From positions 3,286,001 through 3,350,000 of the forward strand of contig NZ_CAJGZP010000001.1 in assembly GCF_904846155.1 (NCBI RefSeq): a stretch of DNA of 64,000 bases. The letters run 5' to 3'. Each line of letters opens with the position of its first letter. The stretch's first letter is position 1. Below the pieces are notes generated by a model that worked only from the letters and a program-made list of their open reading frames with translations, did no database searches and was not told the origin of the DNA. Source of the stretch: Psychrobacter fulvigenes (GTDB lineage Bacteria > Pseudomonadota > Gammaproteobacteria > Pseudomonadales > Moraxellaceae). This document shows, in pieces, positions 7,146 through 56,364 of this stretch. A program made the position numbers and the translations under genes.

Positions 7146-8039
7146 ATGAATGACAACATAGCGAATAGCGTAAAAGATAAAGTCACCCAATCACGTCAAG
7201 TGCAAGAGCTGTATGCTGGGGTAGATACCCAAGACGGCGCGGGTGTTAAGCTCACTCGCGTACTCACGCAGCAGCTACAAAAACGCCTCGACCCGTATTT
7301 GATGTTGGATAACTTTAAAAGCGATAATCCAGATGATTATATCGCCGGTTTCCCTAATCACCCGCATCGCGGCTTTGAAACCATTACCTATATGATTACT
7401 GGCCGTATGCGTCATCGCGACAGTGCTGGTAACGAAGGGTTATTACAAAATGGCGGGGTACAGTGGATGACCGCTGCTAGCGGTGTCATTCATTCAGAGC
7501 TGCCTGAACAAGAAGACGGAGAGATGGAAGGTTTCCAACTTTGGCTCAATCTACCTGCCAAAGATAAAATGAATGACCCTTGGTATAAAGACTTCCAGAG
7601 TGATGACTTGCCTAAATACACAACAGAAGACGGCGTAGATGTTACTGTCATTGCGGGTACGTCCCATGGCGTAGAAGGTGCAGTGACGCGCGAAATCACT
7701 GAGCCGACTTATTTGGATATCCATCTACCAGCAGGGTCTAGCTTTAGTCAGGCCATTCCAGCCGACCACAATGCGTTTGCCTTTGTGTATCGCGGTAAAG
7801 TGGATATTGAAGGTCGAGAAGTGCCGACTAAGACCATGGCTATTCTCGCAAATAACGCTGATACTGATGGCGTCACTATCACAGCCGATAGTAGTGAGGA
7901 TACCAAAGTGATTTTCATTACGGGTCGGCCACTACGCGAGCCGATTGTGCAATACGGTCCTTTTGTGATGAACAGTCAGCAAGAAATCATGCAAGCGGTC
8001 ACTGATTTCCAAAGTGGTAAGTTTGGTGAAGGGGCTTAG
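7146..8039 (+). CDS. Pirin family protein
   Basis: A 297-residue bicupin of the pirin family. The N-terminal cupin shows the metal-site sequence F-P-N-H-P-H-R-G-F-E-T-I-T-Y (two His, residues ~75-77) with later His and Glu in G-V-I-H-S-E-L-P-E. This matches the His3-Glu iron site seen in pirins. The C-terminal cupin starts near residue 185 (P-A-G-S-S-F). Bacterial pirins include quercetin dioxygenases such as YhhW and regulators of central metabolism; the sequence does not show which. GGAGAG lies ~6 nt before the ATG. A strong terminator follows directly. Confidence 0.93.
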   Translation: MNDNIANSVKDKVTQSRQVQELYAGVDTQDGAGVKLTRVLTQQLQKRLDPYLMLDNFKSDNPDDYIAGFPNHPHRGFETITYMITGRMRHRDSAGNEGLLQNGGVQWMTAASGVIHSELPEQEDGEMEGFQLWLNLPAKDKMNDPWYKDFQSDDLPKYTTEDGVDVTVIAGTSHGVEGAVTREITEPTYLDIHLPAGSSFSQAIPADHNAFAFVYRGKVDIEGREVPTKTMAILANNADTDGVTITADSSEDTKVIFITGRPLREPIVQYGPFVMNSQQEIMQAVTDFQSGKFGEGA

Positions 8040-8064
8040 TTTATTAGATACTTTACTGGATGTT

Positions 8065-8101
8065 AAAGCCCGTATTAGTTCGCTAATATGGGCTTTTTTT
8101 T
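8065..8101 (+). terminator. Intrinsic terminator of the pirin gene
   Basis: Hairpin arms AAAGCCCGTATTAG and CTAATATGGGCTTT with a TTCG loop, followed by T8. This is a strong rho-independent terminator. Confidence 0.95.
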
Positions 8102-8160
8102 GTGGGAAAGATTATGAATATTGGTTTGAACTACAAGTCAGGCATGTCAGACAGACTCTT

Positions 8161-8985
8161 TTATTTTCTTTTTTTACTAAAGTGTGCCATAGTATACTTA
8201 CCATTAACAGCTAGTGAATTGCCTTTTTCCCACTCCTCTATTTCATAACCTTTTGACCTAAAGTACTCTTTTTCTTCTAAAGTCAGTATAAAGTCATCTT
8301 TACTAACGTAGCTGAACAGCATTGTTGATTCTGTATGAATATATTTAAACTGCATTTTATTCTTTGATAAGGAAATTATATTCTTTTTATATCTTTCTGA
8401 ATGCCTGTAATAATTAAGAAGCGTGTCGTAAGTCATAATATCAATACCAGTTTCTTTCCGAAGACGAGCTAATACCCTCATTCTTTCAGGTGAGCTATTC
8501 TTTTCTTCAGATCGTCCAATTACTAGCTGATAATTAAACTCAACTGGGTTTCTTCTCATGAGAAAAGGATGAAAAATAGGCTCAAGTCTACGGAGTACTT
8601 CAGCTTTATTATCTTCTACGAAAACTTGCCACGACCTAACTTGAGCAATGGCTTTATTAAACTCAGAGGAAGTATCAACTTGCTTCTTATTATTTGTAAA
8701 GAGTTTCTTATCTGGAATTTCTAACTCAACGAAAGTTACTATCCATGTATCGGAACTCTTTGTTAAATAGACATAATCAGTTTCCAAAGATGTATCTAAA
8801 GGAAATTTTGATATTACTACACCAAAATGAAGATGATGATTCAATAGATTAGGTGTAGGAATTAATTCTGGATTTTTTTCTAGAAATTCATGTATTATTA
8901 ACTCTTTTTTCTTACCCGTAGGAGGAGGTGAATCTAAAATATCTATAAAATCCTTTTCTAGCTTTTCGTCAAAATCTAAAGTCAT
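8161..8985 (-). CDS. Shedu-like DUF4263 nuclease, candidate anti-phage protein
   Basis: A 274-residue protein with the pattern of the DUF4263 / Shedu (SduA) nuclease domain, a PD-(D/E)xK fold. Seen in order: an N-terminal helix with H-E-F-L-E-K-N-P-E (residues 32-40), D70 on the first core strand, F-V-E-L-E-I-P-D-K-K-L-F-T (E87 and E89), N-K-A-I-A-Q-V-R-S-W (Q115), and a later V-I-G-R-S strand and T-Y-D-T-L-L segment. The E-x-E-x-P form at the active site occurs in DUF4263 members in place of E-x-K. Shedu proteins act as single-gene phage defence nucleases. The gene is visibly AT-richer than its core neighbours, which suggests acquisition. It follows the TIR-like gene by 167 bp on the same strand. 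Confidence 0.75.
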   Translation of the reverse strand: MTLDFDEKLEKDFIDILDSPPPTGKKKELIIHEFLEKNPELIPTPNLLNHHLHFGVVISKFPLDTSLETDYVYLTKSSDTWIVTFVELEIPDKKLFTNNKKQVDTSSEFNKAIAQVRSWQVFVEDNKAEVLRRLEPIFHPFLMRRNPVEFNYQLVIGRSEEKNSSPERMRVLARLRKETGIDIMTYDTLLNYYRHSERYKKNIISLSKNKMQFKYIHTESTMLFSYVSKDDFILTLEEKEYFRSKGYEIEEWEKGNSLAVNGKYTMAHFSKKRK

Positions 8986-9152
8986 AAGAAGTTTTGCCTT
9001 AGAAAATATTATTAAGCTAACTAATATATTATGAAAATTTGAATATTTTACACTGCACTATATTCAAGTCTGATTTGATTATTAATTCAAGCTTGTCTTA
9101 ATTTTTATAAGAATTTAATTGAAACTCAGTAATCAGTAGCAACTTACTAGTA

Positions 9153-9983
9153 TTAAAATGGAACATTATCAGGGAGATTATCCACTGGCTTAGATATTTT
9201 AGATTGAAGAACTTCTTCATTGCTTAGAAGCTCATCTACACCTAGCTCAGTAATTGAGTATGCATAAAAATCGTAACCATCTTGATGATCTGTTTCTATA
9301 GACTTACTTATTAGCCCCATACGTTCCAGCTTAATAAGTGATAATTGAATAACTGATTCATCCACTCCACGGAAATTATTAAATATTCTATGAAACGGTA
9401 AACCAATCGGATCAGCAACGTAACTTTGAAGGCAAGTTGCTAAGAATTTATAATCTTGCTCTTTTAATTTGTAATTTGATGGATTAGCAATAATTGCTCT
9501 TGATTCAGAAAGACTAGAGCGATTTAAAATACTTAAACGAGCAGCTTCCGTTTTGATTAATGAGCAAGCTCTATTAGTTGCAGAAACTAAATCACCATCT
9601 GAACGGTTAGCATCATAGTCAGCAGGAGTCACACCTAATAAGTCTGTTGGTAGATGTATATCTATATCACGAGGCTTAAGAATAAAAGAACGTTCCTTTC
9701 CAATAGCACCAACGAATAGACCAAGTTCAAATATTACATTGTCTCTAACTATATGTTGTTTTTCCTCTCTAATTACAGCTACATCATCTGGCGCAAAAAT
9801 AAACAGTGCAAAGTCGACAGTAGAGGACTTCTCAACTAAATCTTCGATAGTTGAAGATGAGAGTTTAAACGTACCACCTGTCCAAATAGTAACCTCAAAC
9901 TGATGATCTAGATTCACATTAACGGCTTCAGCAATTGGGATACTTTCAACTGAAGAAGCAATAAATAATCGTGGTTTTCTCAA
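9153..9983 (-). CDS. TIR-like domain protein with C-terminal winged-helix-like region
   Basis: Predicted nucleotide-binding protein with a PF10137-type TIR-like domain, as in Cap12/Pycsar effectors. The start is set at TTG 9983 because GGAGGT sits 6 nt upstream (9990-9995). A longer frame exists, but its start lies inside the rRNA terminator. In the 276-residue product, R-L-F-I-A-S-S-V-E opens the domain (5-13), V-T-I-W is at 31-34, and R-D-N-V-I-F-E-L-G-L-F-V-G is at 80-92, with E86 the likely catalytic Glu. TIR domains of this group cleave NAD+ when activated. Residues ~165-250 look like a winged helix (L-I-K-L-E-R-M-G-L-I, then a Tyr-rich beta wing). No cyclase gene is next to it. AT-rich; likely horizontally acquired and paired with the Shedu-like gene. 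Confidence 0.75.
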   Translation of the reverse strand: MRKPRLFIASSVESIPIAEAVNVNLDHQFEVTIWTGGTFKLSSSTIEDLVEKSSTVDFALFIFAPDDVAVIREEKQHIVRDNVIFELGLFVGAIGKERSFILKPRDIDIHLPTDLLGVTPADYDANRSDGDLVSATNRACSLIKTEAARLSILNRSSLSESRAIIANPSNYKLKEQDYKFLATCLQSYVADPIGLPFHRIFNNFRGVDESVIQLSLIKLERMGLISKSIETDHQDGYDFYAYSITELGVDELLSNEEVLQSKISKPVDNLPDNVPF

Positions 9984-9989
9984 CTTATG

Positions 9990-9995
9990 ACCTCC
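9990..9995 (-). promoter_or_regulatory. Shine-Dalgarno that decides a TTG start
   Basis: GGAGGT on the minus strand with 6 nt spacing to TTG at 9983. This is a near-perfect ribosome-binding site and it excludes the longer frame from 10082. Confidence 0.85.
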
Positions 9996-10062
9996 ATACT
10001 TTATATAGTAACAATACAGTAAGTATAGCAACGAAAGCTGAGTAATGGATAGGAAGCCACAT

Positions 10063-13547: not shown

Positions 13548-13623
13548 TGGTGGAGCCAAACGGAGTCGAACCGTTGACCTCCTGCGTGCAAGGCAGGCGC
13601 TCTACCAACTGAGCTATGGCCCC
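13548..13623 (-). tRNA. tRNA-Ala (TGC), operon 1
   Basis: 76 nt cloverleaf on the minus strand with encoded CCA. Anticodon TGC lies in the loop CTTGCAC. The acceptor GGGGCCA pairs with TGGCTCC (with wobble) and the T-arm is GTTCGAC. Confidence 0.97.
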
Positions 13624-13630
13624 ATATATA

Positions 13631-13707
13631 TGGTGGGTCTAAGTGGACTTGAACCACTGACCCCCGCGTTATCAACACGGTGCTCTAACCAGCTGAGCTA
13701 CAGACCC
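13631..13707 (-). tRNA. tRNA-Ile (GAT), operon 1
   Basis: 77 nt cloverleaf on the minus strand with encoded CCA. Anticodon GAT lies in TTGATAA. Acceptor GGGTCTG faces TAGACCC, and the T-loop is GTTCAAG. Confidence 0.97.
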
Positions 13708-13865
13708 TGAGAAGCGTGTAAAAAAAGCACTGCTTTTTAGCTTCGCAAGGAGAATCCTTTAAATAGGATTCTCTATAAGCTTGGCTAGCAGTACCTTACA
13801 TACTAAGCTAATAAACTAAACTAAAGAACAACTTGTTGTGAATTCTTGCTGACCGAATGCGTCTA

Positions 13866-15404
<1,539 letters not shown>

Positions 15405-15518
15405 AATCATGCTTGAAGTCTTCACTATAAATAGTAAGATGACTCCTACTCTTGGCCCATTCTTTTCTGGCTCGTCTCTCTAAATTATGTTCGTAATGAA
15501 TTAACTTTGAGTTTTCTT

Positions 15519-15531
15519 GCCTTAAAGAATG
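15519..15531 (-). promoter_or_regulatory. boxA-like antitermination site, rRNA operon 1 leader
   Basis: The leader RNA reads ATTCTTTAAGGCAA upstream of 16S, resembling the CTTTAA core of boxA. The same place in operon 2 reads CTTTAAAGC. This is a weak match, but location and conservation fit. Confidence 0.4.
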
Positions 15532-15622
15532 ATAATTTTTATAGTTATATGTCCCTAGATAAACGAGGTCTCACAACTTTATTTTATAGCATTCTGTGTC
15601 AGCAAAAATTCACACAAGTTGT

Positions 15623-15651
15623 TCTCTAGTTATGCTTTTAAATAGTGTCAA
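15623..15651 (-). promoter_or_regulatory. Promoter P2 candidate, rRNA operon 1
   Basis: -35 TTGACA (complement of 15646-15651) and -10 TAGAGA (complement of 15623-15628) with a 17-bp spacer. The -35 is perfect and the -10 weak. It is conserved in operon 2 with -10 TAAAGA. Confidence 0.55.
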
Positions 15652-15859
15652 GCTACTGTCGTCCAGTAGTTGATTATATAGGGTATTGCTTTCACTAGTC
15701 GTTTTAACCTTGTTGGTTAATCCTAACTAGCGAGCCGACTATCATATCATAAAGATTAGGTTTGTCAAGCTTTTTTATAATTTGTTTCAATAAGTTAGCC
15801 AGGTTTGTTATATGTAAATTCACATATAAGTTAATCCGGTTCATCTTAATGAGCTGCGT

Positions 15860-15887
15860 ATTATAGACGCTTTATTACTTAAGTCAA
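15860..15887 (-). promoter_or_regulatory. Promoter P1, rRNA operon 1
   Basis: -35 TTGACT (complement of 15882-15887) and perfect -10 TATAAT (complement of 15860-15865) with a 16-bp spacer. A GCGTC discriminator-side context is shared with operon 2. Confidence 0.8.
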
Positions 15888-16019
15888 GGGGTAATTTTAT
15901 TTAGTTTAAAGGTTTCTTGTTCAACTACTTAAGCAGTTGGCTTGAACTTTTAGACTAATATCCGGTTTATTAGAATGATAAACCATTCTTCAATCCCGCT
16001 TCCCTTTCGACTGGGTGGC

Positions 16020-16046
16020 ATTATACGCGCTTTTAATAGGGGTCAA
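16020..16046 (-). promoter_or_regulatory. Additional upstream promoter candidate, rRNA operon 1
   Basis: -35 TTGACC (complement of 16041-16046) and -10 TATAAT (complement of 16020-16025) with a short 15-bp spacer. No equivalent was seen for operon 2. Confidence 0.5.
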
Positions 16047-16348
16047 GCTAATACTAGCTTTTATTTTTTATATACTATAACTGATTGAAATAGCTCATTT
16101 TCATAAACCCCAATAAAGCAGATCTATTCTTGAGATATACAATGAAAGTATTATTTAATTTGGATACAAGACTATCCAGCTAAACAGTTAAAGAAAAATG
16201 ACAACTAAGATTGGTCTTCTTAGACTGAGATTACATCAACTATAGGAGAAGGTAAGTAAAAAGGTATCTTTAAATCTACTCAGCAGTGGAATGCCAATGC
16301 TGGGTATTTGATATAAATCAGAACCTTCTAAATTATAATCTCGCGCAT

Positions 16349-16385
16349 AAAAAAAGCCCCCACAACAATGTTGCGGGGGCTTTTT
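16349..16385 (-). terminator. Terminator of rRNA operon 2
   Basis: Hairpin AAAAAGCCCCCACAAC / GTTGCGGGGGCTTTTT with one mismatch near the loop. It sits in the same position as the operon 1 terminator, but the loop sequence has diverged. Confidence 0.93.
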
Positions 16386-16396
16386 AGGAATAGAGA

Positions 16397-16510
16397 GCTG
16401 ACGATGACCTACTCTCACATGGCCGGAGCCACACTACCATCGGCGCTATGATGTTTCACTTCTGAGTTCGAGAAGGGATCAGGTGGTTCCATCATGCTAT
16501 TGTCGTCAGC
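16397..16510 (-). rRNA. rrf: 5S ribosomal RNA (operon 2)
   Basis: 114 nt on the minus strand. No difference from the operon 1 copy was seen. The ends pair as the terminal helix, and the conserved core CGAACTCAGAAGTGAAAC is present. Confidence 0.97.
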
Positions 16511-16565
16511 AAAGGGGGTTAGATATGAGTCTGTTGTTTTATGTGACTTATCACACTACTTGACT

Positions 16566-16597
16566 GAATCAAGCAATAGGTGATATCGAAATAATTA
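16566..16597 (-). other. 3' arm of the pre-23S processing stem (operon 2)
   Basis: Complementary to 19537-19573, with the same pairing as in operon 1. Confidence 0.75.
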
Positions 16598-16628
16598 GAC
16601 TTGTATACAAACCACTTGGGTGTTGTAT

Positions 16629-19479
<2,851 letters not shown>

Positions 19480-19536
19480 ATACAACCCCAAGTAGTCTTA
19501 CTCTTAAAGAGTTTGATTACTAAGTGTTGTCTGTCG

Positions 19537-19573
19537 TAATTATAACGATATCACCTATGTTTACGCTTGATTC
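19537..19573 (-). other. 5' arm of the pre-23S processing stem (operon 2)
   Basis: Pairs with 16566-16597 across the 23S gene. Confidence 0.75.
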
Positions 19574-19588
19574 AGTTCTCTTTACTTT

Positions 19589-19642
19589 TTAATAACTCAC
19601 TACTGGGATAACAACTGATGTCGTTAAGTAGTGAGTTATTAA
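19589..19642. other. Spacer hairpin between tRNA-Ala and 23S (operon 2)
   Basis: Same 16-base arms as in operon 1 (19589-19604 and 19627-19642), fully conserved. Confidence 0.8.
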
Positions 19643-19833
19643 GGTTAATGACGACACGTGAACATGTCATCACTAACCCAGACTCATATCTATGTTTTTA
19701 AATAGTCTCTGTGCTCTCGTCAAGTCACAGATTCTGTATAAAACAGAAAGAAGTAATCAATGCCGTCTCGGCTGAATCACTTGTTTCTATTTATACGTAT
19801 TTAAATATTCTATCTAAAGCATGTCGTTTATAG

Positions 19834-19909
19834 TGGTGGAGCCAAACGGAGTCGAACCGTTGACCTCCTGCGTGCAAGGCAGGCGCTCTACCAACTGAGC
19901 TATGGCCCC
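19834..19909 (-). tRNA. tRNA-Ala (TGC), operon 2
   Basis: 76 nt, identical to the operon 1 copy, anticodon TGC, CCA encoded. Confidence 0.97.
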
Positions 19910-19916
19910 ATATATA

Positions 19917-19993
19917 TGGTGGGTCTAAGTGGACTTGAACCACTGACCCCCGCGTTATCAACACGGTGCTCTAACCAGCTGAGCTACAGACCC
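19917..19993 (-). tRNA. tRNA-Ile (GAT), operon 2
   Basis: 77 nt, identical to the operon 1 copy, anticodon GAT, CCA encoded. Confidence 0.97.
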
Positions 19994-48142: not shown

Positions 48143-50814
48143 TGAATAATAAGTTAACAGACAACAAATCAGCGACTAGCAGCCCCACGTCCGTTACTGA
48201 AAACGCTGACACTATGGATAAAGAGTCAAATTATTCTGGTGGCATGATAAGCCAGCTATTTACTCGCAATCTAGGCTCGCAAGCATTGAGTCGCAGCTGG
48301 TGGCGACGCTGGGTTCATCCGGTGTTGTTTTTATTAACGCTCACGCTATCGCTTGCCACCTACCTGACCCTCGACTCTATCCAGCAGTCTGTTGATAGCT
48401 ATATCACTGACAATCAGCGCGCGCTGGTCGGTGGCGACTTGATCTTAAACAGTAAGCAAGCGTTTCCAAGCGAGATATTAACGCAAGTAGAAACGGTCGC
48501 TGAGACTCAAGTCGTTTATGATTATCAGTTTAATGCGATGGTGGTCAATGATGAGCAAACGCTGCTTGCCCGCGTCAAAGCCGTCTCCCCTGCTTATCCG
48601 TTATATGGAGAGGTCGAGCTCGCTTCAGGGCTGCCGCTTTGGGAACAGCTGACTGTAGATAATGTGGTCGTCGCACCCGAAGTACTCAAAAGCTTAAACG
48701 CTGACATCGGTGATCGCATCACCATTGGCGAGGCGCAGTTTACGATCAGTGATGTACTGACGAAAGAACCTGACCGTCCATTGACCGCCTTTGGCTTTGG
48801 CGGGCGGGTCATGATGCAAGAGGACGCGTTAGAAGCGACAAATCTGTTGGGTCAGCGTAGCCGCATCAATTATCGTATTGAGCTGGCAGGTGATAGCGAG
48901 TCAATGGCAGCGCAGCAGACGCAGCTTGAGCAAATATTAGAAGGCTATCCTGACATTGAGCTTTCTGATGCCGACTCTGCCGATACTTCAGTCTCTCGTA
49001 TCTCTGATAATGTGTTGATGTTTTTGAAGCTATTGGTCATCGCCGTATTGCTGCTATCTGCAGTGGCAATGTATGGAGTCATCACGGCCTTTGTCACCAA
49101 GCAGCAATCTAATAATGCGATTCGTCTGGCATTGGGCGAGCCGATTGGTGAGATCAAAGTCAGCTATTATCGCCTATTAATGACCACCTCCATCATTGCC
49201 TGTGTAGCGGCAGTGGTGCTCAGTCTTGCACTGCTGAAAATTGGTCAGCCTTATCTATCCGCTATCTTGCCTGCCGATATTGGCCTAGCCATCAATCCGC
49301 TTAGTATTATCAAGACCATTATCATTGCTTTAATATTGACCTTGCTCATCACCCAGCGTGGTCTTAGTAGCCTTGATGATACCAAGCCTGCAACCTTACT
49401 CAATCAAGGTACTAGCCAACAATCGCAACACCTGCCTTGGTATCGACGCCTACCGCTCCTATGGTATGGACTGATGCTCATAGGACTGTATGCGTTTTTT
49501 GCCTATGAAGTCGGTTCGTTAAAACTGGGTGCACAGATACTGCTCGGTTTAATTGGTTTCGTGGCAATATTTTGGCTATTGGCACGGGTTTGGCTATGGC
49601 TACTGACCAAGTTGGCGACCAATACCAATGTCAGTTGGATGCAGCGTATTGCCATTCATAATCTGGCGCGCAAAGGCAATCAATCCGCGCTGTTCTTTGT
49701 CACCCTATCGCTGTCAGTCGCTGTCCTCACGCTCATTACCACGCTCAATCACAGCATCAATGCGCAGTTTATCAACGCTTATCCTGATGATGCGCCCAAT
49801 TTATTTTTATTAGATGTGCAGAGTGACCAGCACGATGAGATTAACACCATCATTGGTGCGCCAGTAAGCTACTATCCTGTGATTCGCGCACGCGTGGTGA
49901 CCGCTAATGGGGTACCTGCGCAAGATATCGAAGTCGCCGATGGCTTTGATGATCCGACGCGCGTCTTTAATTTAAGCTATGCCGATACGGTGATGGATAC
50001 CGAGTTCATCACTGATGCGGTAGTAGATGACCAGCTTTACGCGCCTATTGCCGATCAAGATGGCCTTCAATCAACGCGGTCATCAGCACTGCAACAAGTA
50101 CAGCCGCTCTCTATTTTGGACACCGCCGCAGGCATGCTAGGTGTCGGCATGGGCGATGAAATTCGCTTTAATATACAAGGTATTGAGCTGACAGGACAGA
50201 TTACCAGTATCCGTTCACGTTTTGAGCGCGGGCCGAGTCCTTTCTTTTATTTCTTATTTGAGCCGTCGGTATTATCGAACGCCCCGCAAATCCAATTTGC
50301 CACCGCCCACGTACTAGCAGATGAGATTCCAGATCTGCAAGGTGAGTTGGTACGCCAGTTCCCCGCAGTGACTACTATCGATGGTACGGCAATCGCTCAG
50401 CAAATCCAAGAGTTGGTGGTACAAATGAGCCGCTTGGTCTATGTCTTCACGCTACTGGCATTGCTGACGGGTGTCATGGTATTGATTAGCTCGCTCCTCT
50501 CTACCTCGCAAGATCGTATGCAAGAAAGCGCCTCTTTTCGCCTACTCGGCATGCAAAAGCGCGATTTATATATGCTCAATATCTTGGAGCTTGGGGTGCT
50601 TGGTATTAGTGCCGCGACATTTGCGGTTATTATCGCTAGTGTGGGCGCATGGGCTGCGATTACCCAATGGTTTGACTTACGCTATAGTGTGCCGTGGACG
50701 AGCTTAGGCATTGGCGGTGTAGCTTTGGTCGCCTTGTTATTTGGTATTGCTATTATTTATGTAAGATTGGTGATTGGACGTGGGATTATGGCAAGGGTAA
50801 GGGCTATGATTTAG
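48142..50814 (+). CDS. ybbP: ABC transporter permease, YbbP/FtsX family
   Basis: 890-residue permease. One N-terminal helix (~60-80), a large periplasmic MacB-type domain (to ~285), then FtsX domains with three helices each near 290-410 and 760-880, plus two more helices in the middle. The length and double FtsX layout match the YbbP group rather than LolC/E. Coupled to the YbbA-like ATPase. The family is often linked to outer-membrane lipid or lysophospholipid handling through TesA association, but the substrate is unproven. Confidence 0.92.
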   Translation: MNNKLTDNKSATSSPTSVTENADTMDKESNYSGGMISQLFTRNLGSQALSRSWWRRWVHPVLFLLTLTLSLATYLTLDSIQQSVDSYITDNQRALVGGDLILNSKQAFPSEILTQVETVAETQVVYDYQFNAMVVNDEQTLLARVKAVSPAYPLYGEVELASGLPLWEQLTVDNVVVAPEVLKSLNADIGDRITIGEAQFTISDVLTKEPDRPLTAFGFGGRVMMQEDALEATNLLGQRSRINYRIELAGDSESMAAQQTQLEQILEGYPDIELSDADSADTSVSRISDNVLMFLKLLVIAVLLLSAVAMYGVITAFVTKQQSNNAIRLALGEPIGEIKVSYYRLLMTTSIIACVAAVVLSLALLKIGQPYLSAILPADIGLAINPLSIIKTIIIALILTLLITQRGLSSLDDTKPATLLNQGTSQQSQHLPWYRRLPLLWYGLMLIGLYAFFAYEVGSLKLGAQILLGLIGFVAIFWLLARVWLWLLTKLATNTNVSWMQRIAIHNLARKGNQSALFFVTLSLSVAVLTLITTLNHSINAQFINAYPDDAPNLFLLDVQSDQHDEINTIIGAPVSYYPVIRARVVTANGVPAQDIEVADGFDDPTRVFNLSYADTVMDTEFITDAVVDDQLYAPIADQDGLQSTRSSALQQVQPLSILDTAAGMLGVGMGDEIRFNIQGIELTGQITSIRSRFERGPSPFFYFLFEPSVLSNAPQIQFATAHVLADEIPDLQGELVRQFPAVTTIDGTAIAQQIQELVVQMSRLVYVFTLLALLTGVMVLISSLLSTSQDRMQESASFRLLGMQKRDLYMLNILELGVLGISAATFAVIIASVGAWAAITQWFDLRYSVPWTSLGIGGVALVALLFGIAIIYVRLVIGRGIMARVRAMI

Positions 50815-50840
50815 AAAGTGTCGTTTAAATTTTGGTAAAG

Positions 50841-51022
50841 GTTGATGGCGGGTTAGTTGCTGTAGCGGAAACCTGCTATTCGCTATTATCTGCCAGTCTA
50901 GGCAAGGCGGTCGTTACCGTTTGAGCCGTTCCTGTTACCTCGAGACCATCTCAAAACGATACGTCCGCAACTCGCCTAGCCCGTCAGGATAACCGCTACT
51001 CTCAGGGCTAAACCACGTCTCC
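50841..51022 (-). repeat. Palindromic element A, downstream of the three-gene cassette
   Basis: About 180 bp of imperfect palindrome and no gene. The inner arms are CTAGGCAAGGC (50898 on) and its partner ending GCCTAG at 50979, pairing across roughly 30 bases. The minus-strand outer end reads GGTTTAGCCCTGA (complement of 51002-51014) with CTCC at 51019-51022. That end resembles the start of element B at 53609. Confidence 0.6.
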
Positions 51023-51043
51023 AATTGACTATAAAGAGCAAGT

Positions 51044-51718
51044 TCATTCTAATGGATCGTGTCTAAAATCAATTATTACATGGCGTACAGTATATTCTAA
51101 TCCTGAGGATGGATGCTCATGATAACTATAGAAAACTAATTGTTTTTCAGTACAGTCTTCAACTCTCAATGCTGGGGGAAGTATTGTAGGTAACCCTTCA
51201 TCATTAATAATATTAAGGTCAGGTTTCAATAAGTAGTTTTTCCAATCATCTAACATTTTTTTAGCTTTCTTTTTTTTGTCTTTAACATAAATCATCATAC
51301 CACCAGAAGTTTTAAAATCTCTTCCAGTAGAATATCGATGAATAAGCTGTTTCATACCTTTATCTAGATTTCCATTCCCACTTCTAATTTTTCCCTCACC
51401 TATCCACTCATATTCTTCATAATCAGTAGAAACTACTATATCAGCATTGCCGTTAACATATTTACTGTGATTTGCTACCCAGCCTCTCGCATCTAACATA
51501 TCACATATATATAAATTTATTAGATCTTCACCTTTTTGAGAGTTATCTTTTAAACCTTGAAGGTACTTATCTTTTGATTGAGATAGCTTATCTATAGTAC
51601 GATCAATATCATGATACAAAAGGGTTAAGAACTCTTGATAACTGGTTGGATCTCTCCTGTATGACAACTGACGAATAGCCCTATTGGATAGAGAAGGATT
51701 AGATAAACTGCTATTCAT
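51044..51718 (-). CDS. PD-(D/E)xK-nuclease-like protein, third gene of the cassette
   Basis: 224 residues, not recognised as a known family. The central part has the features of a PD-(D/E)xK nuclease core: E64 on a preceding helix, D93 in G-N-A-D-I-V-V, the E-x-K pair E108-G109-K110 in W-I-G-E-G-K-I, and Q124 in M-K-Q-L-I-H-R-Y. The spacing is right for a cleavage site. The N-terminal 60 residues are helical and Ser/Asn-rich. AT-rich like the two upstream genes, with an 8-bp overlap with the middle gene, which argues for one operon. The nuclease function is inferred from motifs only. Confidence 0.6.
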   Translation of the reverse strand: MNSSLSNPSLSNRAIRQLSYRRDPTSYQEFLTLLYHDIDRTIDKLSQSKDKYLQGLKDNSQKGEDLINLYICDMLDARGWVANHSKYVNGNADIVVSTDYEEYEWIGEGKIRSGNGNLDKGMKQLIHRYSTGRDFKTSGGMMIYVKDKKKKAKKMLDDWKNYLLKPDLNIINDEGLPTILPPALRVEDCTEKQLVFYSYHEHPSSGLEYTVRHVIIDFRHDPLE

Positions 51719-52142
51719 TCACTTTCTCCACAAACCGTTTAGATGGAGAAAAATAAGTTATAACTTGTTTTCCAAACTCTTCTTCATTTAGTATATTACC
51801 TACGAATGGGTTATAAAGTTCACCATTTCTCATATCTTCAATAAATTCTTCTCTGTTGGTGATAGATTGAAAAGAACGTGTTCTTGGCTCTAACGCTTCA
51901 AATTGTTGTTCTAATACATTAATACTTCTTCTAGTTAAATAGAACACAGCCTCATAAAACACTTCATCATTAACCTTAGGACTGACACGATACAAATCAA
52001 TAAATGTTAAGTGAGGCTTTTTTGTAGGTCCTACTGAAACATGTTCTATTATAGCCAAGCAGACTTCAGCCATATCTTTATCGATATTGCTTAGATTAGA
52101 ATATACTTTAGTTTTTAATTCATTCACAAAAGTTGTGTTCAC
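51711..52142 (-). CDS. Unrecognised small protein, middle gene of the cassette
   Basis: 143 residues from a GTG start at 52142. I do not recognise it. The central L-T-F-I-D-L-Y-R-V-S-P and F-Y-E-A-V-F-Y-L-T-R-R-S-I-N-V-L-E pattern could be a winged helix (DNA binding or an adaptor), with an acidic C-terminal part. No Cys-rich or membrane segment. The preceding gene ends 18 bp upstream and the next overlaps by 8 bp, so it is very likely translated as part of a three-gene unit. Confidence 0.6.
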   Translation of the reverse strand: MNTTFVNELKTKVYSNLSNIDKDMAEVCLAIIEHVSVGPTKKPHLTFIDLYRVSPKVNDEVFYEAVFYLTRRSINVLEQQFEALEPRTRSFQSITNREEFIEDMRNGELYNPFVGNILNEEEFGKQVITYFSPSKRFVEKVNE

Positions 52143-52160
52143 TTTAAGAGTCCAGTTAAG

Positions 52161-53216
52161 TTAAATTAACTTACCTAATATAAAGTTAAGATCATCAATA
52201 CTGCGCGTTCCATATATATAAGCTTCATATAGATGTGAACCATTCTGTGTATTTATAGCCTGATAAGAACTTTTTAATGATGTATCTAAATTTTTATTGT
52301 CAAAGTAATAACGCATACTTATTCTATAAGGTGTAATATCATTTCCCAGTAGCTTACCATCAACTTTTTCGTTTCGAACGGCCTTTGTTCCTTCATCATG
52401 ATATGTTGCGTCTCGCAAGTCTTTTTGATGACCTTTTAATCTTTCATTATGTGTAGTTCCATGTGGTGTCATAAAGACTATTTCAGTAACACCATTTTTA
52501 CCAGTTTTTTCATCATACAGCTCTTGGATTTTAGGGAAAAAGTCACAGGCATTCGTCAAAGTTACACCAATATTTTTTCTAATATAATTATTAAAGTTAA
52601 TATAAGCTAAGTTTAAGTCACTTCTACTTAATACACTTGCGAGATCCATAGCGACAACAATATAGTTATTTTCAGTATCACAAATTACTAAATCGTAACA
52701 AGCTAGTGGGATTTTCTTTATACCAATCAACTGTTGATAGTCTTCTGAAATACTTTCTACTAAGTCATTTGGGTCAAGAATATCACGAACACTAATCTCT
52801 CTAACAATTGAGAACTGAAATAATGATACAGAATCAGATAACTTAACCTCTTTTATAGGATGGTATTCCGTCTCATTTTCGGGACACGTACTCAAATTAG
52901 TTTTAAAGAACTCTGATAGCTTTCCAACAGTTTCTTCTACGTTAACTTCATAATAAACCGATATCAACTTATCATCAAAGAATACATGTGACTTTAGTAG
53001 CTTCTCAAGCTCTTTCTTCAATTTCGAAAGCTTTTGTAAATCAAACTCACTATTCAGCTTAGTTTTCAACCCTTCTCCGTTTCGGGCACTCAGACTATTT
53101 TTTACACTCCTGAATGTGGCTTGTAACTCTGGAAGAGGAATTTTTCTATCAAGAGCCCAGTCTACATGCTTTGCTATATCCTCTCGTATCTCATTAATGT
53201 CAGCGTTTTCATTCAT
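52161..53216 (-). CDS. Unrecognised 351-residue protein, first gene of the cassette
   Basis: 351 residues, ATG 53216 with GAAGGG 8 nt upstream. No family recognised. The first ~75 residues are helical and charged with a possible coiled coil near 55-75 (L-S-K-L-K-K-E-L-E-K-L-L). A beta-rich middle includes Y-D-L-V-I-C-D-T-E-N-N-Y-I-V-V-A-M-D-L. A polar region near 250-280 contains T-P-H-G-T-T-H-N-E-R-L-K-G-H-Q-K. No Walker or HNH motif is seen. It is AT-rich and heads the operon. A sensor or DNA-binding partner role is only conjecture. Confidence 0.6.
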   Translation of the reverse strand: MNENADINEIREDIAKHVDWALDRKIPLPELQATFRSVKNSLSARNGEGLKTKLNSEFDLQKLSKLKKELEKLLKSHVFFDDKLISVYYEVNVEETVGKLSEFFKTNLSTCPENETEYHPIKEVKLSDSVSLFQFSIVREISVRDILDPNDLVESISEDYQQLIGIKKIPLACYDLVICDTENNYIVVAMDLASVLSRSDLNLAYINFNNYIRKNIGVTLTNACDFFPKIQELYDEKTGKNGVTEIVFMTPHGTTHNERLKGHQKDLRDATYHDEGTKAVRNEKVDGKLLGNDITPYRISMRYYFDNKNLDTSLKSSYQAINTQNGSHLYEAYIYGTRSIDDLNFILGKLI

Positions 53217-53857
53217 AAATTAACCCTTCAACTTTTATTTTAGAGACGTCTAGTTACTAGTTAAAAGCTTAATGAAGTTTTTTAAATCGAGTTAATTTCT
53301 GAAATTCTACCGACTACAACATTGTTAGTAAGCATACTATAACTGTGAAAACTAAACTATATTTAAAGACTATTTAAGCAAACTAAGCGTCATTGACTGT
53401 CGTCATACTTTCCAACTTTAGTAGACTAAAATAGTATAGGTAATCATAACTTAGTTACAGTTATTTTTCACCTTATATTAGGAATAGCTATTGTGATTTT
53501 TCTTAATAGTTCATGCTATATGATTATATTAAGAGAATTTTACAAGTCTACCCTATGCTAGACCCTACACCTACTGATTCTTTGCTCAGTTATCAATAGT
53601 CATCTTATGGAGCGGTTTAGCCCTGATTGAAGCGGTAGCTTGGTGGGCTGTGGCGCTTACAGCACCTTGCTAACCAGAAAATCATAGATTTTCTCTTGCG
53701 TTGGGGCAAAGCAGTGCTTTGCTTTATCCCGCCTCAGGTCGCTCGGACGTTGGAACGCTACTGTGTTTAGGTGCTGTGCGCCGCAGTCTGCCAACTACAA
53801 GCAAAAAGCAGGATTAGCTCCAAAACCCTCTCAATTCACATCTCAGCTATATTAATC
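53217..53857. other. Accessory intergenic region with a palindromic element
   Basis: About 640 bp without a gene. The right part (53609-53822) is palindromic element B. The left part (53217-53608) is AT-rich and must contain the cassette promoter; no consensus -10/-35 pair was clear. A partial palindrome GTTAGTAAGCATACTATAAC at 53324-53343 could be an operator. Confidence 0.5.
53609..53822 (+). repeat. Palindromic element B, upstream of the three-gene cassette
   Basis: About 214 bp imperfect inverted repeat. Arms include GGCTGTGGCGCTTACAGCACC (53646-53666) against the complement of GGTGCTGTGCGCCGCAGTC (53770-53788). The outer ends are GGAGC (53609) and GCTCC (53817-53821). Small inner hairpins such as AGAAAATCATAGATTTTCT are also present. 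No coding capacity; looks like a MITE or similar element. Its outer end resembles that of element A in opposite orientation. Confidence 0.7.
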
Positions 53858-54805
53858 CTAACTATTTTCAATAAATTCATTGATTTGACGAGTGATTATC
53901 TTCCATAGTTTGACTTGCGAGGCTCGGCTGCCTGCACCCATATGCGGGGTTAGAATGATGCGAGGATGACCTTCATTGGCAAGCTGGACTATTGGATCAT
54001 TTTCGCCAGCAGGTTCTTGTTCAAATACGTCGGTAGCATAGCCGAGTATTTGCTCCTGTTTGACTGCGCCAGCTAAGGCCTCGCTATCGACAATCTTGCC
54101 ACGTGCGACGTTGACCAGTAGTGGTTTTTTGCTCATTTTACTTAGAGTATCTTGGTTAATGAGATGTTTTGTTTCCTCGGTGAGTGGGCAATGTATGGTG
54201 ATGACATCGGACTTGCTCAGGACGGTTTCAAAGTCGGTGTAGTCGTCATTACGGGGCTTGCGACCTTGGCGCTCTGCCCATAGGACGTTCATATCATAGG
54301 CTTTGGCAAGCTTAGTAATCCGCTTACCAATGTCACCGATACCAATCATACCGATGGTTAAGCCCTCAAGGTCAATGGCCTCAGCATCGATGATGTCGGC
54401 TAGCCCCTTCTCCTTCCATTCGCCACTTTTAACTTTGTTGTGATAACGGATACTGGCACGCATGGCGCTGAGTAGTAGCATCATGGTGTGCTCGGCGACG
54501 GTGGCGCTGGCAAAATCTGGTGCGTTGAGGAGCTTGACGTCGTGGTCTTCGCAGGCTTGTTTGTCAATGTGGTTGGAGCCGACAGAGAGGAGTTGAATGA
54601 GCTTGAGATTGGGTAGCGCCTCAATCACTTCACGCTCGATACGTAGGGAGCCGTTAATCATGATGTCGGCATCTCGACAGCGCTCAATGATGGTTTGATT
54701 GTCTTGTGGGGTTTCTTCAAAGGTGACGTAGTCGGTTATTTTTTTGGGGGTAGGTCGCTCTAGGCCGGTAGCAAATCTTTTTTCATCGAGTAATACGGCT
54801 TTCAT
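53858..54805 (-). CDS. D-isomer-specific 2-hydroxyacid dehydrogenase
   Basis: 315 residues, NAD(P)-dependent reduction of 2-oxoacids or the reverse. The Rossmann motif G-M-I-G-I-G-D-I-G-K-R-I is near 150-161. The catalytic residues are seen as Arg in N-V-A-R-G-K-I-V-D, Glu in F-E-Q-E-P-A and His in T-P-H-M-G. AAGGAG lies 6 nt before the ATG. The sequence is closest to the glycerate/phosphoglycerate dehydrogenase-like members; the substrate is not certain. No ACT domain, so it is not full-length SerA of the regulated type. It sits beside avtA, divergently. Confidence 0.88.
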   Translation of the reverse strand: MKAVLLDEKRFATGLERPTPKKITDYVTFEETPQDNQTIIERCRDADIMINGSLRIEREVIEALPNLKLIQLLSVGSNHIDKQACEDHDVKLLNAPDFASATVAEHTMMLLLSAMRASIRYHNKVKSGEWKEKGLADIIDAEAIDLEGLTIGMIGIGDIGKRITKLAKAYDMNVLWAERQGRKPRNDDYTDFETVLSKSDVITIHCPLTEETKHLINQDTLSKMSKKPLLVNVARGKIVDSEALAGAVKQEQILGYATDVFEQEPAGENDPIVQLANEGHPRIILTPHMGAGSRASQVKLWKIITRQINEFIENS

Positions 54806-55017
54806 GAGGTACTCCTTTTTTAGTAATAGCTCTTTTATTTAGCACTTACTATATAAGGCTTGCGGCTGACGATGTGTTAGCGTTTGTTAGAAATCGGACA
54901 AGCTCTTGTATATTCAGGTCTACACCAAGCAAGGTTGTTTACTCACCTTGTCCCCCTCATTTGCTATAATGGCGCCACTTTATCAATTAATAACCTCCTA
55001 CACCTCACGGTAACCTT

Positions 55018-56364
55018 ATGAAATTCTCAAAATTTGGTCAAAAGTTCACCCAAACCACTGGCATCTCACAATTGATGGACGATCTGGGCGATGCACTAAA
55101 AAGCGATCAGCCGGTCAATATGCTCGGCGGTGGTAATCCTGCCAAAATTGATGCGGTGAACGAGTTGTTTTTGCAGACTTACCAAGCGCTTGGCCATGAC
55201 AGTAACGCTAGTGATCCTGATAGTAGCGCCATTATTAGTATGGCGAATTATTCCAATCCGCAAGGTGATGCTGAATTTATTGATGCCTTAGTTGGCTTTT
55301 TTAACCGTCATTATGATTGGAACTTGAGCGCGGAAAATATCGCCCTGACCAATGGCTCGCAAAATGCTTTTTTCTTCTTGTTTAATCTGTTCGGCGGGGC
55401 CTTCAGTGATAATAAGCTTGATGAGCATGGTCAAGATAAAGACAGCCAGTCTGTAGACAAATCCATCTTGCTACCGCTTGCCCCTGAATACATTGGCTAT
55501 AGCGACGTGCACATCGATGGTCAACATTTCATGGCAGTCCTGCCGCATATCGATGAAGTCACTCATGATGGCGAAGAAGGCTTCTTTAAATATCGGGTGG
55601 ATTTTGAGGCATTAGAGAACTTGCCTGCGCTCAAAGAAGGTCGCATCGGTGCCATTTGCTGTTCGCGCCCGACTAACCCAACGGGCAACGTGTTGACCGA
55701 TGATGAAATGGCACACTTAGCCGAGATTGCCAAGCGCTATGATGTGCCGCTGATTATCGATAATGCTTACGGTATGCCCTTCCCTAATATCATTTATTCA
55801 GACGCGCATCTGACGTGGGATGACAATACGATTCTTTGCTTTAGTCTCTCCAAGATTGGCTTGCCAGGCGTGCGCACTGGCATCATCGTCGCGGCTCCTG
55901 AAGTGATCGCAGCGGTCAGCGCCATGAATGCGGTAGTCAATCTAGCTCCTACCCGCTTTGGTGCTGCCATTGCCAAACCATTGGTGCAGAATGACCGTAT
56001 CAAGCAGCTATCGGACAATGACATCAAGCCGTTTTATCAGCAGCAAGCAAAACTGGCTGTGAGACTTTTGAAAGAAGCATTGGGTGATTATCCATTGATG
56101 ATTCATAAGCCAGAGGGCGCTATATTCTTCTGGCTGTGGTTTAAAGACTTGCCGATTACCACGCTTGAGCTATACGAGCGTCTCAAAGAAAAAGGCACGC
56201 TCATCGTACCAAGTCAGTTCTTCTTCCCTGGTGTTGATATTAGCGATTATCAGCATGCGCATGAATGTATTCGCATGAGTATCGCCGCGGATGAGCAGAC
56301 GCTCACTGATGGTATTGCAGTGATTGGAGAAGTGGTAAGAGCGCTTTATGATGAGGCTAAGTAA
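55018..56364 (+). CDS. avtA: Valine--pyruvate aminotransferase
   Basis: 448 residues, PLP-dependent class I aminotransferase making valine/alanine interconversion (2-oxoisovalerate plus alanine). The N-terminus F-S-K-F-G-Q-K-F-T-Q-T-T-G-I-S-Q-L-M-D-D-L-G is characteristic of AvtA. The PLP Lys is in F-S-L-S-K-I-G-L-P-G-V-R-T-G. R-P-T-N-P-T-G-N-V and N-A-Y-G-M-P-F-P are also seen. The cytosolic enzyme is full length. It is divergent from the hydroxyacid dehydrogenase gene. Confidence 0.95.
   Translation: MKFSKFGQKFTQTTGISQLMDDLGDALKSDQPVNMLGGGNPAKIDAVNELFLQTYQALGHDSNASDPDSSAIISMANYSNPQGDAEFIDALVGFFNRHYDWNLSAENIALTNGSQNAFFFLFNLFGGAFSDNKLDEHGQDKDSQSVDKSILLPLAPEYIGYSDVHIDGQHFMAVLPHIDEVTHDGEEGFFKYRVDFEALENLPALKEGRIGAICCSRPTNPTGNVLTDDEMAHLAEIAKRYDVPLIIDNAYGMPFPNIIYSDAHLTWDDNTILCFSLSKIGLPGVRTGIIVAAPEVIAAVSAMNAVVNLAPTRFGAAIAKPLVQNDRIKQLSDNDIKPFYQQQAKLAVRLLKEALGDYPLMIHKPEGAIFFWLWFKDLPITTLELYERLKEKGTLIVPSQFFFPGVDISDYQHAHECIRMSIAADEQTLTDGIAVIGEVVRALYDEAK

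Follow-up and report, generated by a model that had tools for sequence, protein, structure and literature searches.

In a 64,000-nucleotide stretch of the Psychrobacter fulvigenes genome (contig NZ_CAJGZP010000001.1, positions 3,286,001 to 3,350,000; hereafter the window), three adjacent minus-strand genes at 51044-53216 form a cassette that is very probably a mobile three-gene anti-phage system, a defence role that we infer by computation. Its products, here called Hp1, Hp2 and Hp3, would act as DNA sensor, adaptor and nuclease, and this mechanism as a whole is one that we somewhat favour. The evidence comprises the gene order, an invariant nuclease site and a nuclease fold in Hp3, an RdgC-like fold in Hp1, and fusions of the Hp2 domain beside the Hp3 gene. 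An earlier note, made from the letters of this DNA, had suspected a defence or toxin-type system. Defence is supported as probable because the cassette bears a nuclease, is syntenic and mobile, and lies at places where defence genes gather.

The list of open reading frames (ORFs) gives gene 1 (Hp1, protein 1; 351 residues, ATG start) at 52161-53216, gene 2 (Hp2, protein 2; 143 residues, GTG start) at 51711-52142, and gene 3 (Hp3, protein 3; 224 residues, ATG start), encoding the predicted PD-(D/E)xK nuclease effector, at 51044-51718, all on the minus strand. Together they form a tight operon, with a gap of 18 bp between genes 1 and 2 and an overlap of 8 bp between genes 2 and 3, just as the earlier note had read them. 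None of the three proteins has a match above cut-off in Pfam or NCBIfam, and PDB sequence searches returned nothing convincing for Hp1 and Hp3 singly, nor with the three profiles.

Hp3 is a predicted PD-(D/E)xK nuclease

The putative catalytic core of Hp3 spans 51347-51529 on the minus strand and consists of E64 (51527-51529), D93 (51440-51442), E108 (51395-51397), K110 (51389-51391) and Q124 (51347-51349). All five residues are identical in 55 of 55 distinct full-length Hp3 relatives (51 clusters at 90% identity). In the structural model, D93 and the E108/K110 pair fall on successive strands, 91-97 and 104-111, and the predicted structure has a restriction-endonuclease fold, with OkrAI, BamHI, BglII, McrC, NucC and HamA among the matches listed. 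With a conserved D and E-x-K on core strands as well as the fold, Hp3 as modelled is a member of the PD-(D/E)xK superfamily, and it looks like a BamHI-type nuclease, an assignment new in this analysis. The earlier note had picked out these residues and had named a predicted structure lacking a nuclease core as grounds for giving up its proposal; the residues are present as described, and so is the core. PADLOC returned only weak similarities for Hp3 (PDC-S54, E = 0.0023, for the window protein; HamA, E = 0.012, for an Acinetobacter relative), which we did not use as identification.

Hp1 is modelled with an RdgC/RexA-like fold

In the predicted structure of Hp1, roughly the first 80 residues form helices, and residues 79-351 make up an RdgC/RexA-like core. 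RdgC ranked first in the PDB fold search, and a phage protein named RdgC ranked second in the viral library (E = 4.3e-6). The model thus assigns Hp1 the two-domain fold of RdgC, RexA, IML3 and CHL4, which is likewise new here; the available text of PMC11077077 presents these four proteins as sharing one DNA-binding fold. RexA was not among the listed PDB fold matches of Hp1, an absence that carries no weight. Sequence homology of Hp1 to RdgC or RexA was considered and rejected (hhalign 0.5% against 24 RdgC sequences and 0.1% against lambda RexA), and a sub-threshold Pfam similarity, DUF2726 at E = 0.08, was not used as identification. By analogy with the proteins sharing its fold, Hp1 is expected to be a dimer gripping DNA, a predicted DNA-engaging platform.

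The Hp2 domain and Hp3 recur behind restriction enzymes

Hp2 is predicted to be an adaptor. What is also new here is that its domain forms the C-terminal end of restriction-modification enzymes of three classes. A winged-helix fold for Hp2 is at most a passing impression. The domain makes up residues 960-1083 of a 1089-residue MmeI-like enzyme in Rhizobium phaseoli (L013; 50 bits, E = 3e-14), residues 1034-1163 of HsdR, whose gene follows those of HsdM and HsdS, in a Sphingopyxis assembly (L035; 59 bits, E = 5e-17), and residues 1634-1760 of a type ISP enzyme (L116; 53 bits, E = 1.5e-15), these E-values referring to the small ORF sets searched. All three loci are without Hp1, and in each Hp3 follows directly downstream of the fused enzyme with a 4-base overlap. 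Assembly error is disfavoured because two further protein clusters have the MmeI-like fusion (tails 69 and 76% identical) and one has the HsdR fusion (91%). The fused enzymes retain nuclease-like motifs of their own, so Hp3 would be an addition to them, not a replacement. Our search of the literature with combinations of terms found no account of accessory-nuclease fusions of MmeI-like, type ISP or HsdR enzymes.

A weaker fourth case is L118, in which an Hp2-like stretch (E = 0.002) ends a ribosomal S3-like protein and Hp3 comes next. The S3-like protein (L118:96-3073, minus strand) has KH_2 and S3_C domains, and an apparent LexA/CI-type repressor gene precedes it. An RNA-binding platform for a nuclease module would be odd and new.

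In a tree of 44 of the 55 Hp3 rows (the 11 left out were mostly long branches, and the type ISP row stood in an unsettled fork), the four rows from these loci lay among ordinary Alphaproteobacteria triads, that is, loci with all three genes. A single clade of the four was rejected at p-AU 0.021, a value weakened because the clade test was made after a first tree had been seen; strongly supported branches alone force just two of the four platform changes. The simplest reading is that the platform ahead of Hp2-Hp3 has been swapped at least twice, because non-triad rows lie among triads and the single clade is rejected.

Because the Hp2 domain is fused to restriction-modification enzymes ahead of Hp3, Hp2 and Hp3 look like a portable adaptor-nuclease module and Hp1 like a replaceable DNA-engaging platform. 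The simplest reading of Hp1 is then that it plays the part of HsdR, MmeI and ISP enzymes, namely engaging target DNA. A tentative extension, to which we give rather less than even weight, is a plug-in module in which the Hp2 docking domain and the Hp3 nuclease have moved repeatedly among unrelated nucleic-acid-engaging platforms (RexA-fold Hp1, HsdR, MmeI-like, type ISP and perhaps S3-like), the three-gene cassette being the version with a RexA-fold sensor.

The cassette recurs in fixed order on mobile elements

Judged by sequence, the cassette proteins are not orphans: Hp1, Hp2 and Hp3 match the function-less phage-protein families PHROG 12777, 11490 and 9664, respectively (E = 8.2e-8 for Hp2 against PHROG 11490). 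We collected loci from phage, plasmid, genome and viral collections and from whole-genome searches. Of 74 locus names with Hp3, 64 held the full set of three genes in a profile search. Fifteen names were the same place twice, judged by hand from contig, length and coordinates; with these repeats removed, the triad was present in 52 of 59 distinct loci, which include the window's own and near-identical copies (for example L037/L038, L010/L012 and L002/L005). A 53rd locus has a divergent Hp1 (hhalign probability 92%), and the same gene order in 53 of 59 loci bears out the synteny that the earlier note had proposed to look for. The remaining six are the three fusions, the fusion-like case, L028, which meets a contig end, and L122, with an Hp3-like frame of 408 residues (E = 5.7e-12).

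Throughout the 52 triad loci the genes are co-stranded and near-abutting or overlapping, the overlaps being upper bounds because scripted ORFs begin at the first ATG, GTG or TTG. The sole large gap (1278 bp) is in L008, an Acinetobacter baumannii record filed as a 3.97-Mb plasmid, where two opposite-strand insertion-sequence-like ORFs split Hp2 from Hp3 (L008:5672-6949). In a Psychrobacter relative, Hp1 is broken into frames of 223 and 134 residues (L106:8375-9447, minus strand). Hp3 served as query for almost every locus, so its steady presence is partly a matter of choice; the real result of the survey is that Hp1 and Hp2 accompany it. The sole reverse check, with Hp1 as query against phages, returned the same four records as Hp3.

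Those four phage records, along with seven plasmid records, were reached in tblastn searches with the window's Hp3, and the window's Hp1 was found in the same four. With two other Hp3 proteins as queries, the plasmid records numbered 15 and 16, and a third such query reached five phage records. The order Hp1-Hp2-Hp3 is present in phage records of Moraxella and Acinetobacter, in a corticovirus-like Vibrio phage and in the P2-like segment that bears the name Klebsiella phage KP12, and on plasmid records of Acinetobacter, Calothrix, Vibrio, Photobacterium, Pseudomonas, Enterobacter, Leclercia, Pantoea, Klebsiella, Moritella and Proteus, the plasmid carriers including one 6.1-kb Col plasmid. The Vibrio phage record (corticovirus-like, PM2-like, 14.8 kb) has the cassette beside an integrase-like gene (L055:1336-3626). 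The KP12 record (L002, OM835953) is filed under Vequintavirinae and carries P2-like genes; its classification looks wrong, and it perhaps holds a co-assembled P2-like prophage. A 5.7-kb contig filed as Streptomyces cinereus (L023) carries a cassette whose closest relatives in the Hp3 tree are Moraxellaceae cassettes, and is possibly contamination.

At the DNA level, the KP12 copy matched 28 of 5426 complete E. coli genomes, with 80% or more of the query covered in six. Three of the 28 places were opened, and all three copies lie between the replication endonuclease (gpA) and portal (gpQ) genes of P2-like prophages; the other 25 places, and second records of Acinetobacter, Rhizobium, Enterobacter and Proteus, were matched and left unopened. 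From this gpA-gpQ hotspot of E. coli P2-like prophages, Rousset et al. described in 2022, in the passages available, a three-gene system without recognisable domains that protects against P1 (PMC9122126). The word 'undescribed' in the earlier note thus finds no support as it stands, the published system being probably of the same family.

The carriage on plasmids (down to the 6.1-kb Col plasmid), prophages and a corticovirus-like phage would also suit a toxin-antitoxin or addiction cassette, in which Hp3 is a DNA-damaging toxin restrained by Hp1 and Hp2 and serves to maintain the cassette and its mobile host; other toxin-antitoxin genes lie nearby on several plasmids. We consider this unlikely, as the Hp2 domain and Hp3 also partner restriction-modification enzymes, which are DNA-restricting machines and not antitoxins, and the three-gene system from the same hotspot, in the excerpts at hand, protects against P1 (PMC9122126). 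Slightly less weight still goes to a system that restricts incoming plasmids or linear DNA instead of phages, with Hp1 as a topological clamp recognising ends or small circles. Such a role would agree with the wide carriage on competing mobile elements and with RdgC dimers being rings thought to hold DNA in their pore, for which the available part of PMC11077077 cites a paper on circular-DNA binding. Against it, the activity published for the three-gene system of the same hotspot is, in the text available, directed at a phage (PMC9122126). Anti-phage defence remains the preferred reading of the cassette.

A chromosomal hotspot holds the window copy

The window copy occupies a variable interval between ybbP and avtA (50815-55017), which we compared in nine relatives (L095-L103). 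Two have a nearly empty interval of about 134-138 bp, and seven have 1.3-3.7 kb with other genes, the filled intervals having a guanine-plus-cytosine (G+C) content of 31-37%. The ten interval proteins scanned include an AbiL pair (PADLOC AbiLi, E = 6.8e-87; AbiLii, E = 1.4e-26). Other contents among the relatives are a GmrSD-N protein, an IrrE-like and DUF4411 pair, HNH with DUF3800, a DUF6615 protein, and a set with a dCTP deaminase-like protein; two of the ten scanned proteins gave no PADLOC or Pfam match at 1e-3, or matched nucleotide-metabolism families only. Because relatives hold varied AT-rich cassettes that include AbiL, the interval is a small hotspot for accessory genes, a known defence system among them, and it offers a practical spot for finding Psychrobacter defence cassettes.

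Across genomes the distribution is patchy. The cassette was carried by 6 of 105 genomes of the genus and 2 of 369 of the class (each count including the window's own genome), by 8 of 398 in the phylum (including the window's own and the doubtful L122), and in another class by 1 of 385, namely the genome on which that search was centred.

These settings bear on a further alternative, that an RdgC-like protein and a nuclease aid recombination, circularisation or maturation of the DNA of a carrier phage or plasmid. RdgC acts in recombination, according to the accessible passages of PMC11077077, and a phage protein of that name is among the best viral fold matches of Hp1. The cassette, however, also occupies an accessory interval of a chromosome, and its occurrence is sporadic (6 of 105 genomes in the genus); in E. 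coli prophages it occupies an accessory hotspot and not the replication operon; and fusion to restriction enzymes does not fit. We regard a recombination or repair cassette as improbable.

A candidate mechanism

As a defence system, the cassette could work as follows. A dimer of Hp1 would grip DNA without strong sequence preference, like RexA and RdgC, and its trigger would be an infection-specific DNA state, most likely replication or recombination intermediates; sensing of such a state has been proposed for RexA in the portion available of PMC12894663. Hp2 would dock Hp3 onto the DNA-bound Hp1 platform, and the Hp3 PD-(D/E)xK endonuclease would then cut DNA. Either the phage would be stopped directly or the infected cell killed.

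Several considerations weigh against this account. All function is drawn from computation. The chromosomal neighbours were not rich in known defence genes, as judged from 84 neighbours of 12 loci (84 of 167 listed neighbour proteins, with L035 and the viral loci L037-L047 left out), the top shared PADLOC model hitting two at 1e-10. The genome-wide counts are limited by a loose first-pass search, and the identity of the cassette family with Rst_3HP, taken up below, is a likelihood.

Flanks and other features of the window

The three genes have G+C contents of 32.4% (51044-51718), 31.5% (51711-52142) and 32.7% (52161-53216), with 22-25% at third codon positions, compared with 48.7% for ybbP and 47.0% for avtA. 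The earlier note was right that the cassette is AT-richer than its surroundings (about 32% versus 47-49% G+C), but avtA (55018-56364) is not its direct flank: a D-2-hydroxyacid dehydrogenase gene (53858-54805; 48.5% G+C) intervenes. We set this gene aside as a cassette member; its G+C is chromosome-like, and homologues were found in 24 of 24 relatives searched, with no match inside the ybbP-avtA stretches of the nine relatives. The AT-rich intergenic region upstream of gene 1 (53217-53857, minus strand) is the presumed site of the operon promoter. A scan of 50800-55020 gave 17 promoter-like sites against 12.9 (standard deviation 3.6) in shuffles, no clear excess.

The earlier note also spoke of an island bounded by repeats. 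Around the cassette there is a weak inverted pair alone, with arms of 41 nt that are 73% complementary: the left arm at 50992-51032 (plus strand) includes GGTTTAGCCCTGA on the minus strand at 51002-51014, and the right arm at 53596-53636 (plus strand) has GGTTTAGCCCTGA at 53614-53626. We do not rely on this pair as an insertion mark; the 13-bp core occurs four times in the window with at most two mismatches, and 5 of 100 shuffles reach the same.

Elsewhere in the window, positions 8001-10000 form a further AT-rich stretch (32-33% G+C), possibly a second acquired segment, and 13548-19993 holds two tRNA-Ile/tRNA-Ala pairs 6.3 kb apart, like two adjacent rRNA operons.

Comparison with known systems

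We take the three-gene anti-P1 system of 2022 to be the one that DefenseFinder names Rst_3HP. The cassette family is likely to be Rst_3HP, judged by gene number, place and descriptions. Both consist of three adjacent genes without a Pfam domain, between gpA and gpQ of E. coli P2-like prophages. Rst_3HP is mostly prophage-borne (PMC9090908) and broad but rare (PMC13370402), as excerpts of these papers have it, and the cassette family gives the same picture; passages of two further papers predict Rst_3HP for strains of Vibrio and of Pseudomonas aeruginosa (PMC13249269, PMC13101515). The window copy differs in sitting in a Psychrobacter chromosome, and its Hp1 shares 23% identity with the versions from Klebsiella and E. 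coli. A search with PADLOC 2.0.0, which may lack a 3HP model, left the cassette family without a match, and six accessions of the E. coli relatives appeared in no paper text searched.

With RexAB of lambda and of Pseudomonas putida (PMC12894663), the comparison turns on the effector, which in the cassette is a predicted nuclease plus adaptor and not the membrane protein RexB. No RexB-type membrane effector is present beside the sensor, the neighbours of Hp1 being Hp2 and the nuclease-like Hp3, and Hp1 is without sequence similarity to RexA. RdgC (PF04381) is the best PDB structural match of Hp1, which differs from it in its extra N-terminal helices and in having neither sequence similarity nor a PF04381 match; PF04381 was not found in the window's own genome. 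The only literature that we found tying RdgC to anti-phage defence was the RexA structure paper. Unlike Hachiman HamAB, the cassette has no HamB helicase gene, and its three proteins have no Hachiman match (HamA, DUF1837) in Pfam or PADLOC.

Type I, type IIL (MmeI) and type ISP restriction-modification systems share with the cassette, in three loci, an Hp2 domain as the enzyme C-terminus with the Hp3 gene next, whereas the window cassette is without a methylase, helicase or specificity domain. Surveys of defence systems count Rst_3HP, yet the passages available on it give no mechanism. If the cassette is Rst_3HP, the predicted folds would supply a testable one (RexA-like DNA engagement, adaptor, nuclease), would link the old puzzle of phage sensing by RexA to a soluble nuclease effector, and would mean that restriction enzymes can bear a second, exchangeable nuclease. 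Were the plug-in module also true, lambda Rex exclusion, Rst_3HP and classical restriction would be united through one effector.
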